A DNA stretch of 51,505 nucleotides from NCBI GenBank assembly GCA_030607575.1, contig JAUWJS010000006.1, forward strand, positions 1-51,505, written 5' to 3'. Position 1 is the stretch's first letter. Every line of letters begins with the position of its first letter. The translations under genes were made by a program, and so were the position numbers. The notes beneath the pieces were generated by a model. The model ran no database searches and had not been told where the DNA came from. It saw only the letters and a program-made list of their open reading frames with translations. The stretch is from Candidatus Heimdallarchaeota archaeon. GTDB lineage: Archaea > Asgardarchaeota > Heimdallarchaeia > Heimdallarchaeales > Heimdallarchaeaceae. Below, piece by piece: positions 2,633 to 5,843 of this stretch.

Positions 2633-3559
2633 CTATCTCCTATTTAGAATGAAAGAGGAAAGCTTCTTGGGAATAGTTTCATCTCTAAAGAGAATGTTTT
2701 GTGTAAGAACATCTAAACCTGTTTCTTCTTCAATTTCCTCAGTATAATTCTTATCTGTTTCATGAATTATTATTGTGCTACATATGTCTTTATACAGTTT
2801 TGCTACACCTACAGGAGATATCTCAAGACTTTTGGTTTTCATCAACTTACCTGTCGGTCCACTAACAGGTGCTTCACCAATAATTGGACTTATAGCTATA
2901 CATTTGCTTTTGTTTTTTTCAAGCATTTTTCTAATGGGTTTAATGTCAATAATGGGCCCAATGCTGGTGATTGGGTTACTAGGACCAATTATTATTAATT
3001 CTGAAATATCCAATTCATTTAAAGCTAAGTTTGGAACTATTGCTTTTTCAAGACCTTTAACATATATATCTTTAATTTCGATTTCTCCTTTGTATTTCAC
3101 CCAAAATTCTTGGAAGTGAATATTTCTATCGTCCTCAGTAATAATACGCGTTTCAATATGATTTTCTGAACTAGGAAAAATCTTTGCTCCAATGCTTAGT
3201 TTCTCTCTCAAATTATTAATTATTACAGATTGATTTACGCCCTTTTGCATTTCATTTGTCCTAAAAACGTGCATCCCTAAGTCTTTGTCTCCTAACTGGA
3301 ACCAAGTGTTTACCCCATACTTGTTTAGGAAGTCTAGAGTGTTGTAAGTTTCATTTATTACACCCCAGTATTTTTCTATATCTAATAGGTTACTGAAGAG
3401 ATAAAGAATTGTATCAATATCTGGAGAAACATAGTAACCATACACCCAGAAATTGTCTGCAGAATTGGCAATTATTGATATTTGTTCTTCTGGAATATTA
3501 CTTCTAAAACCTTGAATTAGTTTTGGGGTTCCTGTTCCTCCAGATAGGAAAGTTATCAT
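2633..3559 (-). CDS. cofD: 2-phospho-L-lactate transferase (CofD)
   Basis: CofD transfers the phospholactyl (or phosphoenolpyruvyl) group from the GDP-activated donor made by CofC to the deazaflavin Fo, giving F420-0. The 308-aa length and N-terminal SGGTGTPKL motif (residues 6-14) are diagnostic. Also visible are the NSADNFWVYG segment near 31, the DIDTILY segment near 48 and SPIIGEAPVSGP near 224. It leads the dus-like, cofC, M24 run, and starts 33 nt after the end of the RpoH-like gene. Fo synthase (cofG/cofH) and CofE are not in this window. Confidence 0.95.
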   Translation of the reverse strand: MITFLSGGTGTPKLIQGFRSNIPEEQISIIANSADNFWVYGYYVSPDIDTILYLFSNLLDIEKYWGVINETYNTLDFLNKYGVNTWFQLGDKDLGMHVFRTNEMQKGVNQSVIINNLREKLSIGAKIFPSSENHIETRIITEDDRNIHFQEFWVKYKGEIEIKDIYVKGLEKAIVPNLALNELDISELIIIGPSNPITSIGPIIDIKPIRKMLEKNKSKCIAISPIIGEAPVSGPTGKLMKTKSLEISPVGVAKLYKDICSTIIIHETDKNYTEEIEEETGLDVLTQNILFRDETIPKKLSSFILNRR

Positions 3560-3592: not shown

Positions 3593-4480
3593 TTATTTAG
3601 CTGATTTTTTTGAAGCAGTTGTTTTAGATTTTGCAGCTTTCTTACTTGGTGCTTTCTTTGGTTTTGCGGCAGTCTTACTTGGAGTTTTCTTTGGTTTTGC
3701 GGCAGTCTTACTTGGAGTTTTCTTTGGTTTTACGTCTGTCTTACTTGGAGTTTTCTTTGGTTTTTCAGCTGTCTTACTTGGTGCTTTCTTTGGTTTATCT
3801 TCAACTGGTTTTTCAGGTGTTTCAGGTGTTTCTTTAGGCTTTTTTGGAGCAGTTTTTCTTGTTGTTTTCTTTTTGATAGTTCCAGTTTCTAATAAACGAA
3901 GTCGCGATGTTGACTTTATAACGACTCTATAATAAGATCCATTTTCTCCCATATCTGGATTTCGAACGATTTTGATAACGTCCCCAGGTTTTGCTTGAAT
4001 AGCTTTCACAGCTGCATCACTTTCTAGGATTTTAGGTATTTGATGTTTATTAATTTGGTATCTCTCTAAGAAGTACTTTATTTCTGGTGATTTAAGCTTA
4101 ACATGTTGACTAACCATTGCATGATCAAAGATGTTAAACAGTGGATTATTGCTACTTATAATTTCAATACCCAGTTTAATTGACTCTTTCTTTGCATAAT
4201 GAGTTAAAGGTGATTCTGCAATAAGGAGGGCTTCACCTAGCTGTTCTTCCTCTTGTAGTTTTCCTAAAAGTCTAATTAATTTTACTCCAATTTGAGGATT
4301 TTTTGGAAATCGTGCAATCGCTGTTATCTTTTCTTTTTCTTCAGAAATTTTATCAGCATATATATCTAGAAAATCGTCATCTTCTTTGGTATCTTTAATT
4401 TGAAATCCTCTAAATTCAAGAATCTCTTTAACACCATCCATTATCCTCTTTTCCTTAGCCTTTTGTTCTTTAGAAGACAA
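3593..4480 (-). CDS. rpoH: Full-length Rpb5-like RNA polymerase subunit H with Lys-rich tail
   Basis: Three parts are visible in this 295-aa protein. Residues about 123-188 match the archaeal RpoH / eukaryotic Rpb5 assembly domain (YQINKHQIPKIL, AKPGDVIKIVRN, YYRVVI). Residues about 11-115 align in order with the N-terminal jaw domain of eukaryotic Rpb5 (KEILEFRGF near 18, a GEALLIAESPLT segment near 82, I-F-H before the C-domain). Ordinary archaeal RpoH is about 80 aa and lacks this jaw. Residues about 200-295 are a basic tail with an 11-residue repeat (KPKKTPSKTAA type), like histone H1 or other DNA-binding tails. The TTG start is preferred because GAGGTAA lies 8 nt upstream; an ATG exists at 4441. 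It sits upstream of cofD rather than in an rpoB operon. Confidence 0.85.
   Translation of the reverse strand: MSSKEQKAKEKRIMDGVKEILEFRGFQIKDTKEDDDFLDIYADKISEEKEKITAIARFPKNPQIGVKLIRLLGKLQEEEQLGEALLIAESPLTHYAKKESIKLGIEIISSNNPLFNIFDHAMVSQHVKLKSPEIKYFLERYQINKHQIPKILESDAAVKAIQAKPGDVIKIVRNPDMGENGSYYRVVIKSTSRLRLLETGTIKKKTTRKTAPKKPKETPETPEKPVEDKPKKAPSKTAEKPKKTPSKTDVKPKKTPSKTAAKPKKTPSKTAAKPKKAPSKKAAKSKTTASKKSAK
3616..3800 (-). repeat. 33-bp in-frame tandem repeats encoding the RpoH tail
   Basis: About five imperfect 33-bp units encode 11-residue KPKK(T/A)PSKT-type repeats. Two neighbouring units (about 3657-3722) are nearly identical at the DNA level, which points to recent slippage or unequal exchange. 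The repeat is coding and is not a CRISPR: units are contiguous, without spacers. Confidence 0.85.
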
Positions 4481-4550
4481 GTAAGTTACCTCTGCCCCGT
4501 TAAAAATCCGTTAATTTAAAATCTTTTGACAAGTGAGAGGTTTTCAAAAG

Positions 4551-4907
4551 CTATTTATCTTCCTCTTCTGTTTGAAATTTAATATAATAAGAACCATCTT
4601 TATTTCTACTTACTATTGGTTTATTATCATCACTTTCTGAAAGCAATTTTTCAATATCTACCTCAAAAATTCCATCACTTGTAAGTCTGATCTCTTCAAC
4701 CCCCTCTTTTATATCTGTTTGGTGAATCTCTTTTTCTACAATAAGTTCAAGTTCTTCTTCTTTCTTCTGATAGGAAGACTTTTCTCTATAAGTTTTGAAT
4801 TTGAAGGATCCACAAAAAGGGCATCCATTAAGCAGGATTTGACTATTCAAATCAAGTTTCTTATTACACAGTGCACACTTTGTTATTCTATTAGATGGTT
4901 TTGACAT
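4551..4907 (-). CDS. OapC-like (DUF2072) zinc-ribbon protein
   Basis: This 118-aa protein starts with a zinc ribbon: CxxC at about 12-15 (CALC) and a second knuckle NGCPFCGS at about 28-35. After a charged linker, the C-terminus has a small strand motif (SDGIFEVDIEKLL, then IVSRNKDGSYYIKF) found in archaeal DUF2072 proteins. One member of this group has been described as the origin-associated protein OapC. Function in this lineage is not established; nucleic-acid or protein binding is likely. It lies 30 nt downstream of the BpsA-like gene and 70 nt upstream of the long RpoH in the same direction. Confidence 0.72.
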   Translation of the reverse strand: MSKPSNRITKCALCNKKLDLNSQILLNGCPFCGSFKFKTYREKSSYQKKEEELELIVEKEIHQTDIKEGVEEIRLTSDGIFEVDIEKLLSESDDNKPIVSRNKDGSYYIKFQTEEEDK

Positions 4908-4937: not shown

Positions 4938-5798
4938 TTATTCAATATTTATGCTTGAATTATATAAGAAAGGACCTTTATGATTACATTTTGGACATCC
5001 CTTGTTTTCTAGTTCATCAATTGAATTGAATTCACCCTCAGATCCTACGTTGAAGCTTTCTCCACATATTGCTTTGCACTTATATAGTTGTAAATGACTA
5101 TTACTTTCTCTATAATACATTGGCCCATAGTAATGATTTGCTATAGTTTCTTTAGAATTTGGTTTTACTTTAATTATGTATAAGTCTGAAACTTTTTTAT
5201 TCAGAGGAGTTTTGTACTCATAACTGTTGAAATCTGTTTTCTTCTCTTCTATTTCCAAATTCATTTCATTGACTAGTTCTTCCAGAATATCCTCTTTTTC
5301 ACTTTCAATATCAATAGATAGAAAGATTCTTGATGGTGATTCCTTGTTGGCACATTGTACAGCTCTTGTTAAACCAACTTCTAACCCTTCCTTTGTCATA
5401 GGGGGTTCAACAAAAATATAGTCAAATTGATTTTTTAGAATAATTATCATTCGAACCCGGATATCATGATTTACATACCGTATGGTTCTAATCTTTTGTT
5501 TAACTTTCATATTAAAAACAATTTCAGGAATTCTTTTGTCTATATCTAGAACTGCTAAATCCTTTGGTTTTGAAAGAATACCCAATGGCAAAGAAGAAAG
5601 ATCCATATCTCCTAGAAAAATAATTCTCTTTCCATTATAATCGTCAGGATGTTCTAAGAGGACTCGTTCAATACTAGATGTCTTTGAAATATAATATTGA
5701 TCATAACCAATATTTGGAATTCCACGTAGCTCTTGTAGTTCCAAATAAGCTTTGTCGATTTTTTCAAAAAGTTCTTCCTCATTGGGAATTGTTTTCAT
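4938..5798 (-). CDS. BpsA-like aminopropyltransferase (DUF43) with C-terminal zinc ribbon
   Basis: The protein resembles branched-chain polyamine synthase BpsA, which adds aminopropyl groups to spermidine using decarboxylated AdoMet. A Rossmann segment (IIFLGDMDLSS near 54, AVLDIDKR near 78) and VEPPMTKEGLEVGLTRA near 130 correspond to the GDDD and PPYT motifs of the family, but both are altered (GDMD, PPMT). At about 246-276 there is CxxxC...CPKC, a zinc-ribbon-like end. At 286 aa it is shorter than typical BpsA (about 350 aa) and seems to lack the N-terminal winged helix. The ATG at 5796-5798 is chosen over the adjacent TTG. The altered motifs leave activity uncertain. Confidence 0.68.
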   Translation of the reverse strand: MKTIPNEEELFEKIDKAYLELQELRGIPNIGYDQYYISKTSSIERVLLEHPDDYNGKRIIFLGDMDLSSLPLGILSKPKDLAVLDIDKRIPEIVFNMKVKQKIRTIRYVNHDIRVRMIIILKNQFDYIFVEPPMTKEGLEVGLTRAVQCANKESPSRIFLSIDIESEKEDILEELVNEMNLEIEEKKTDFNSYEYKTPLNKKVSDLYIIKVKPNSKETIANHYYGPMYYRESNSHLQLYKCKAICGESFNVGSEGEFNSIDELENKGCPKCNHKGPFLYNSSINIE

Positions 5799-5843
5799 CA
5801 AGAAATGCTAATGTTACTGACTTAAAAAAGATTCGCTGCCATC

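Follow-up and report, generated by a model that had tools for sequence, protein, structure and literature searches.

It is very probable that the gene at positions 3593-4480 (minus strand) of the window, the whole stretch of 51,505 nucleotides of Candidatus Heimdallarchaeota archaeon DNA that was analysed, is the archaeon's Rpo5 (RpoH) in a full-length Rpb5-type form, with a jaw that would lie at the downstream DNA, and that the eukaryotic jaw most likely stems from this long form. The open reading frame, identified by ORF analysis, Pfam, phmmer and genome search, encodes an uninterrupted 295 residues from a TTG start codon at position 4480; a Shine-Dalgarno-like GAGGT (4488-4492, minus strand, read from the sequence) stands 7 nt upstream of the start. 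Three parts of the protein were recognized, all on the minus strand: an Rpb5-like jaw with a catalytically dead PD-(D/E)XK/Mrr fold (residues 1-112, positions 4145-4480; profiles, model and structure alignment), an RpoH/Rpb5 assembly domain (residues 113-190, positions 3911-4144; Pfam, phmmer and structure alignment) and a Lys/Pro/Thr-rich tail of variable length in the genus (residues 191-295, positions 3596-3910; composition and genome search). The Pfam model RNA_pol_Rpb5_C (PF01191) covers residues 115-187 (E 3.1e-21; 75.4 bits against a cut-off of 23.5). A phmmer search with the whole protein found residues 56-186 to be collinear with human Rpb5 (its residues 74-208; E 4.9e-15), and the alignment thus spans the second half of the jaw and continues into the assembly domain. 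The assembly domain carries RNPDMGENG at the place where R.S.TAG is usual, and its score against the NCBIfam model for archaeal subunit H (NF007129) is 78.6 bits, just below the cut-off of 83.

The domain formed by residues 1-112 is a homologue of the jaw of eukaryotic Rpb5; the two proteins agree in its fold and in the order of their domains. A jaw-only profile (A2), made from 41 Asgard proteins after removal of the assembly domain, matched 13 PDB sequences at E<=1; 11 of these fell below 1e-3, all of them eukaryotic Rpb5 (best 6.3e-10), and the remaining two, Phi92_gp146 and toxofilin, both had an E value of 0.13. A separate jaw-only profile (A5), made from 17 proteins of Bathyarchaeota-named genomes and genomes of the same class, matched seven PDB sequences below 1e-3, every one a eukaryotic Rpb5. 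The two profiles match one another with an E value of 1.4e-27. Among the Asgard jaws R24, G65 and T93 were found to be invariant (41/41). According to the A2 profile alignment, G65 corresponds to the KVGIK segment of human Rpb5 and T93 to MTPSAK; the pairing of R24 with human RGY comes solely from a second, weak alignment (1.7 bits), which covers the first jaw helix of the human protein. The loop around T93 reads THYAK in the window protein versus TPSAK in human, and the TPSA segment of human Rpb5 is a reported contact with downstream DNA (PMC6690254, excerpt).

The Pfam models divide the jaws differently. PF03871, the Rpb5 jaw model of Pfam, has no match to the window protein at E<=1, for which reason the protein is called here an archaeal variant of Rpb5 and not a plain member; the same model matches just seven of the 41 Asgard jaws (best 1.4e-5) and none of the 17 A5 jaws at E<=0.01. 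The comparison of residues 1-120 with the Rpb5 N-terminal domain, proposed in the preliminary description, succeeded with the A2 profile and failed with PF03871. Mrr_cat (PF04471) matches all 41 Asgard jaws and all 17 A5 jaws; its score is 19.8 bits for the whole window protein, below the cut-off of 21, and rises to 22.8-23.0 bits, above the cut-off, when the jaw is taken by itself. More matches to Mrr_cat than to PF03871 are to be expected if the Rpb5 jaw itself belongs to this superfamily as a dead member, as has already been stated for yeast Rpb5 (PMC551604, excerpt). The Mrr-type fold of the archaeal jaw is likewise catalytically dead: the catalytic (E/Q/D)xK is kept in none of the 41 Asgard jaws. 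An active nuclease was considered and ruled out by its absence at the catalytic strand in all 41.

Structure prediction led to the same assignment. A template-free AlphaFold2 model of the window protein was built from 46 Asgard rows (pLDDT 81.6, pTM 0.60). Rpb5 chains fill ranks 1-36 of the Foldseek search with this model (best E value 1.1e-12); African swine fever virus contributes two of them and eukaryotes the other 34. Alignment of the model with Rpb5 of 7f4g in VIA-align gave Z 16.1 over 182 residues (rmsd 3.9 A; residues 3-188), and the preliminary claim that about 110 residues before the RpoH domain align in order with the Rpb5 jaw is thus borne out by profiles, Foldseek and VIA-align in agreement, as is the expectation that the predicted structure would resemble Rpb5. 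In alignments of the model the jaw region also fits nuclease folds (EndoMS, Z 11.5 over 99 residues; AF1548, Z 10.7). Since both fit well, the fold alone is insufficient to decide the identity of the jaw.

An Mrr-type domain might instead have joined archaeal RpoH separately from the event that gave rise to Rpb5, in which case the likeness between the jaws would reflect only their shared superfamily. This is the strongest of the competing explanations, and we consider it improbable. The fit to EndoMS and AF1548, the breadth of the Mrr_cat matches beside the seven for PF03871 and the stand-alone jaw-like ORFs of the Bathyarchaeota class are in its favour, but the jaw-only profiles of two groups independently find Rpb5 and zero known nucleases in the PDB at E<=1, the order of domains is the same, and (E/Q/D)xK is lost throughout the Asgard jaws. 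Furthermore, in a tree made without the jaw (see below), a single clade of the long forms and human Rpb5 is not rejected.

Analysis of the archaeon's own assembly (87.6% complete, 185 contigs) revealed a single PF01191 match above the cut-off. No second RpoH was found there, although at that completeness one may be missing. In this genome rpoB lies on contig C111 and rpo5 on contig C40; no RpoH stands beside rpoB, where the upstream gene is helicase-like. The order rpoH-rpoB-rpoA is that of non-Asgard archaea (PMC10833476, excerpt). As the gene is the only Rpo5 found in the assembly, we infer a role in RNA polymerase; the separate short rpoH near rpoB, or any second RpoH, that the preliminary description had named as grounds for doubt did not appear. 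The next gene downstream of rpo5 encodes CofD (2633-3559, minus strand); next upstream are genes for an OapC-like zinc-ribbon protein (4551-4907, minus strand) and a BpsA-C-like protein (4938-5801, minus strand), both conserved neighbours in the genus and the family. Throughout the genus and family the OapC-like and BpsA-like genes adjoin rpo5, as does CofD in most genomes, and a CofD homologue flanks rpo5 in the Asgard families f2, f26 and f29 as well. Elsewhere in the same genome (contig C66), a 123-aa ORF (L240) is weakly similar to the jaw profile and to Mrr_cat, under the cut-off.

The protein could also be a paralogue that has the Rpo5 fold and works outside the polymerase, for example as a basic-tailed DNA-binding protein, while a canonical RpoH serves the polymerase. 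The location of the gene away from rpoB, the altered TAG motif and the basic tail would suit such a protein. We regard it as very unlikely, considering the lone Rpo5 of the assembly and the copies present in other genomes. Jaw-bearing Asgard genomes have one PF01191 copy or extra copies that are likewise jaw-bearing, with the exception of a 48-residue PF01191 fragment at a contig end (G206). Similarly, no genome of the Bathyarchaeota class combines a full-length with an assembly-only match, and the partial extra copy in one of them (G232) includes part of the jaw. The long and short forms of Rpo5 are therefore nearly exclusive between genomes and almost never share one; this exclusive distribution supports the view that the long form replaces the short form across genomes and is not added to it.

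A survey of 227 genomes of the window's phylum, Asgardarchaeota, found 205 that match a profile of jaw plus assembly domain. By hand count the jaw is present in 124 of these and absent in 81 (one unclear), where genomes beyond the listed matches, most of which belong to family f19, were classed by best E value and frame length, and where four of the 124 are fragments or are cut by a contig end (G070, G168, G174 and G196). The extension is accordingly shared with other Asgard genomes, as the preliminary description had asked. Within the window's own class, 54 of the 58 genomes match and one of the 54 is jawless. This exception (L083, genome G013) belongs to the window's own genus, in which 19 others have the long form; it is a lone short rpoH beside rpoB with a very long tree branch, and perhaps a foreign contig in the bin. 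One genome counted as jawless (G163, family f22) has an Rpo5 (L090) with a long N-terminal region that was not recognized as a jaw and bears TKPSDKNAKEAE; it is perhaps a strongly diverged jaw. Loci L112-L118 (families f23/f24) have a jaw-like N-terminus together with about 30 extra residues towards the end of the assembly domain.

Occurrence of the long form extends beyond the Asgard archaea. Named genomes yielded 183 relatives in a scan, of which the best 80, at 79 loci, were nearly all long; among these best 80 most are labelled Bathyarchaeota or Thorarchaeota, and the other labels are a few Jordarchaeia, Borrarchaeum, Nitrososphaerota and Crenarchaeota and one Lokiarchaeota. An even sample of 398 genomes from the phylum of a Bathyarchaeota genome gave 377 matching genomes, with, by hand count, at least 57 full-length matches in at least 56 genomes. 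In the Bathyarchaeota class, 115 of 121 genomes match, and 71 full-length matches were counted by hand in 66 genomes; the jaw of one further genome (G385), interrupted by an insert, is not counted among the 66. This insert (L244) is Cys-rich and zinc-ribbon-like and lies between the last jaw helix and the final jaw strand of Rpo5. Three loci of the same class (L245, L246 and L247) encode stand-alone proteins of about 245 aa, in which a jaw-like domain is followed by a Cys-rich region, without an Rpo5 domain. The preliminary description had set the window protein against an ordinary archaeal RpoH; that contrast is not upheld, the long form being the commoner one among matching Asgard genomes (124/205) and common in the Bathyarchaeota class (66/121). 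Because the long form is common in both groups, the window protein is one of a large class.

Comparison of gene neighbourhoods revealed an association between the form of Rpo5 and its position. The collected loci contain 256 distinct Rpo5 ORFs, 206 with a jaw and 50 jawless; none of the 206 jaw-bearing ORFs adjoins rpoB versus 45 of the 50 jawless ORFs. The set is non-random, as named loci were collected via a mostly long-form query and some jawless regions were chosen deliberately; some loci overlap and relatives are non-independent, and therefore no p value is given. At least 600 bases downstream are present in the locus for 191 of the 206 long ORFs, so the absence of rpoB is mostly no edge effect. 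The five jawless ORFs that are not beside rpoB are L090, with its long unrecognized N-terminus, L106 (a 48-aa fragment), L117 (cut at the contig start), L248 (whose contig ends right after the gene) and L271. It follows from these counts that the jaw goes with leaving the rpoB operon. The site known as E62K from a yeast/Pyrococcus chimera (PMC3906176, excerpt) was tried as a marker that might set the long form apart and was rejected, with K or R occurring there in 194 of the 206 long and 46 of the 50 short ORFs.

A tree of 97 rows and 81 columns was made from the assembly domain, with no jaw columns included; its rows were hand-picked from the 256 ORFs plus human Rpb5 and two Thermococcales sequences. 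The rows cluster by form more than by phylum. Placing the long rows, including human, in one clade lowers the log-likelihood by 2.4 (p-AU 0.469) and is not rejected; placing the Asgard rows in one clade lowers it by 60.0 (p 0.008) and is rejected with this set of rows. After removal of five rows, namely those of seemingly mixed genomes (G013, G165), of a genome with two matches (G322) and on a long branch (human), that is L083, L088, L089, L287 and human, the log-likelihood deficit is 36.5 for the Asgard clade (p 0.085), which is then no longer rejected, and 7.2 for the long clade (p 0.381). The unconstrained tree places human and five long rows of Asgard families f14-f16 among the short forms, and the Asgard short rows L089 and L103 among the long forms. 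Grouping by form is thus favoured, and grouping by species is not firmly rejected. The result leans towards a separate old jaw-bearing lineage, which 81 columns do not prove. Together with the homology of the jaws and the order of the domains, the tree suggests, without proving it, that eukaryotic Rpb5 descends from the long form. The least probable alternative is a transfer of Rpb5 from eukaryotes to archaea, which could account for the scatter of the long form across Asgard archaea and part of Thermoproteota but disagrees with the diversity of the archaeal jaws (18-77% identity to the window's jaw) and their presence in Bathyarchaeota-named records too, with their matching Mrr_cat more often than PF03871, which fits a position nearer the root, and with the human row standing in no donor-like clade of the poorly resolved assembly-domain tree.

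Multiplication of the jaw was found within the window's order. In 11 genomes of families f3 and f4 (L072-L082), the rpo5 frames are 321-500 residues long, the shortest being truncated where its contig ends. With the jaw profile and a threshold of 8 bits, six of the 11 ORFs have three modules before the assembly domain and the remaining five have two. The first module is weak: in a search of just 11 sequences, its domain E values in seven ORFs lie between 3.8e-6 and 1.5e-3. A Pfam scan of the aligned ORFs found both Mrr_cat and Rpb5_C in 9/9. The AlphaFold2 model of one of these ORFs (473 aa, 9 rows, pLDDT 76.0, pTM 0.48) has three successive modules of similar topology, and its best Foldseek match is Rpb5 (E 1.7e-11). 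We know of no description of multi-jaw subunits, and none was met in open-access searches on the subunit in general, preprints excluded. Family f28 presents a different kind of multiplication, with two or more rpo5 copies, mostly in tandem, in 16 of 39 matching genomes; at five of its loci (L091, L099, L087, L108 and L107) two full-length jaw-bearing rpo5 genes stand in tandem.

Analysis of the tail revealed 36% lysine and a net charge of +28 for residues 201-295. Part of the tail is encoded by a 33-bp tandem repeat (3629-3796, minus strand) with an 11-aa unit in 5.1 copies. Tails within the genus vary from 29 to 160 aa and differ in their repeat units; in L055, a member of the same family, the tail is short and acidic. 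A search of the archaeon's own genome with the tail gave no further match at E<=0.01. The Lys-rich repeat tail announced in the preliminary description is thus confirmed, and its likening to histones is not: no histone family was among the Pfam matches of the whole protein at E<=1, and a histone relationship was rejected, composition alone being alike. The tail may be a young extension that binds nucleic acid independently of sequence.

Taken together, the protein is most likely an Rpb5-type subunit that would grip downstream DNA. From the established structures of Rpb5 and Rpo5, the assembly domain would dock on the largest subunit. By homology the jaw would be at the downstream end of the cleft, with the T93 loop meeting the downstream duplex. 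More speculatively, the basic tail would probably add a sequence-independent affinity for DNA or RNA and with it an electrostatic grip. The long form would be old in archaea and the likeliest source of the eukaryotic jaw. A wider scenario is put forward tentatively, its chances being somewhat below even: subunit 5 may comprise two ancient interchangeable lineages, one of them short and located in the rpoB operon, the other jaw-bearing and encoded elsewhere, with repeated replacement in either direction. Eukaryotic Rpb5 would then be a branch of the jaw-bearing lineage that survived, the jaw would have come about in archaea from a dead Mrr-type nuclease, and the two- or three-jaw subunits of one Asgard order would hold a longer stretch of downstream DNA.

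In the literature the Rpb5 jaw is described as eukaryotic and as absent from archaeal Rpo5/RpoH (PMC2675907, PMC3906176 and PMC6690254, excerpts), and a paper from 2026 on archaeal small subunits (PMC13257274, excerpts) makes no mention there of a jaw on archaeal Rpo5. No earlier report of such a jaw was found in the open-access literature, preprints excluded, and a prior report is possible. The occurrence of the long form in many archaea suggests that the jaw of the eukaryotic polymerase is older than eukaryotes, and the subunit may have contributed to how eukaryotic polymerases originated. Were the jaw archaeal, the passage from the archaeal to the eukaryotic polymerase would count one supposed invention fewer, and the source of the jaw could be tested with archaeal enzymes. 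The exclusive distribution of the short and long forms, with the exit from the rpoB operon, constitutes a natural experiment on the function of the jaw.

Comparison with known systems places the window protein closest in architecture to eukaryotic Rpb5/RPABC1 (human and yeast), with which it shares the jaw followed by the assembly domain, the fold, the RGY, VG and T..AK positions and a dead PD-(D/E)XK domain; it differs in being archaeal, in an identity of about 24% in the structural alignment, in a Lys-rich C-terminal tail of about 105 residues and in THYAK for TPSAK. With canonical archaeal Rpo5/RpoH it shares the assembly domain, at 33-49% identity to the solved ones; unlike the window protein, these subunits (Pyrococcus, Thermococcus, Sulfolobus and Methanocaldococcus) have 77-84 aa in the PDB, without a jaw. 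The window gene shows none of the characters of a canonical short RpoH, namely a length of about 80 aa with the assembly domain only, a location directly upstream of rpoB and an NF007129 score above the cut-off. The Mrr-type PD-(D/E)XK nucleases and NucS/EndoMS resemble the window protein in the fold of residues 9-113 and in the Mrr_cat match, whereas the Asgard jaws are without (E/Q/D)xK (41/41) and form one chain with a polymerase subunit. Rpo13 of Sulfolobales, in contrast, is an unrelated helix-turn-helix protein and a separate subunit, but it resembles the jaw-bearing Rpo5 in position, its place being partly filled by the eukaryotic Rpb5 jaw and its basic C-terminus lying near the downstream DNA (PMC2675907, excerpt).
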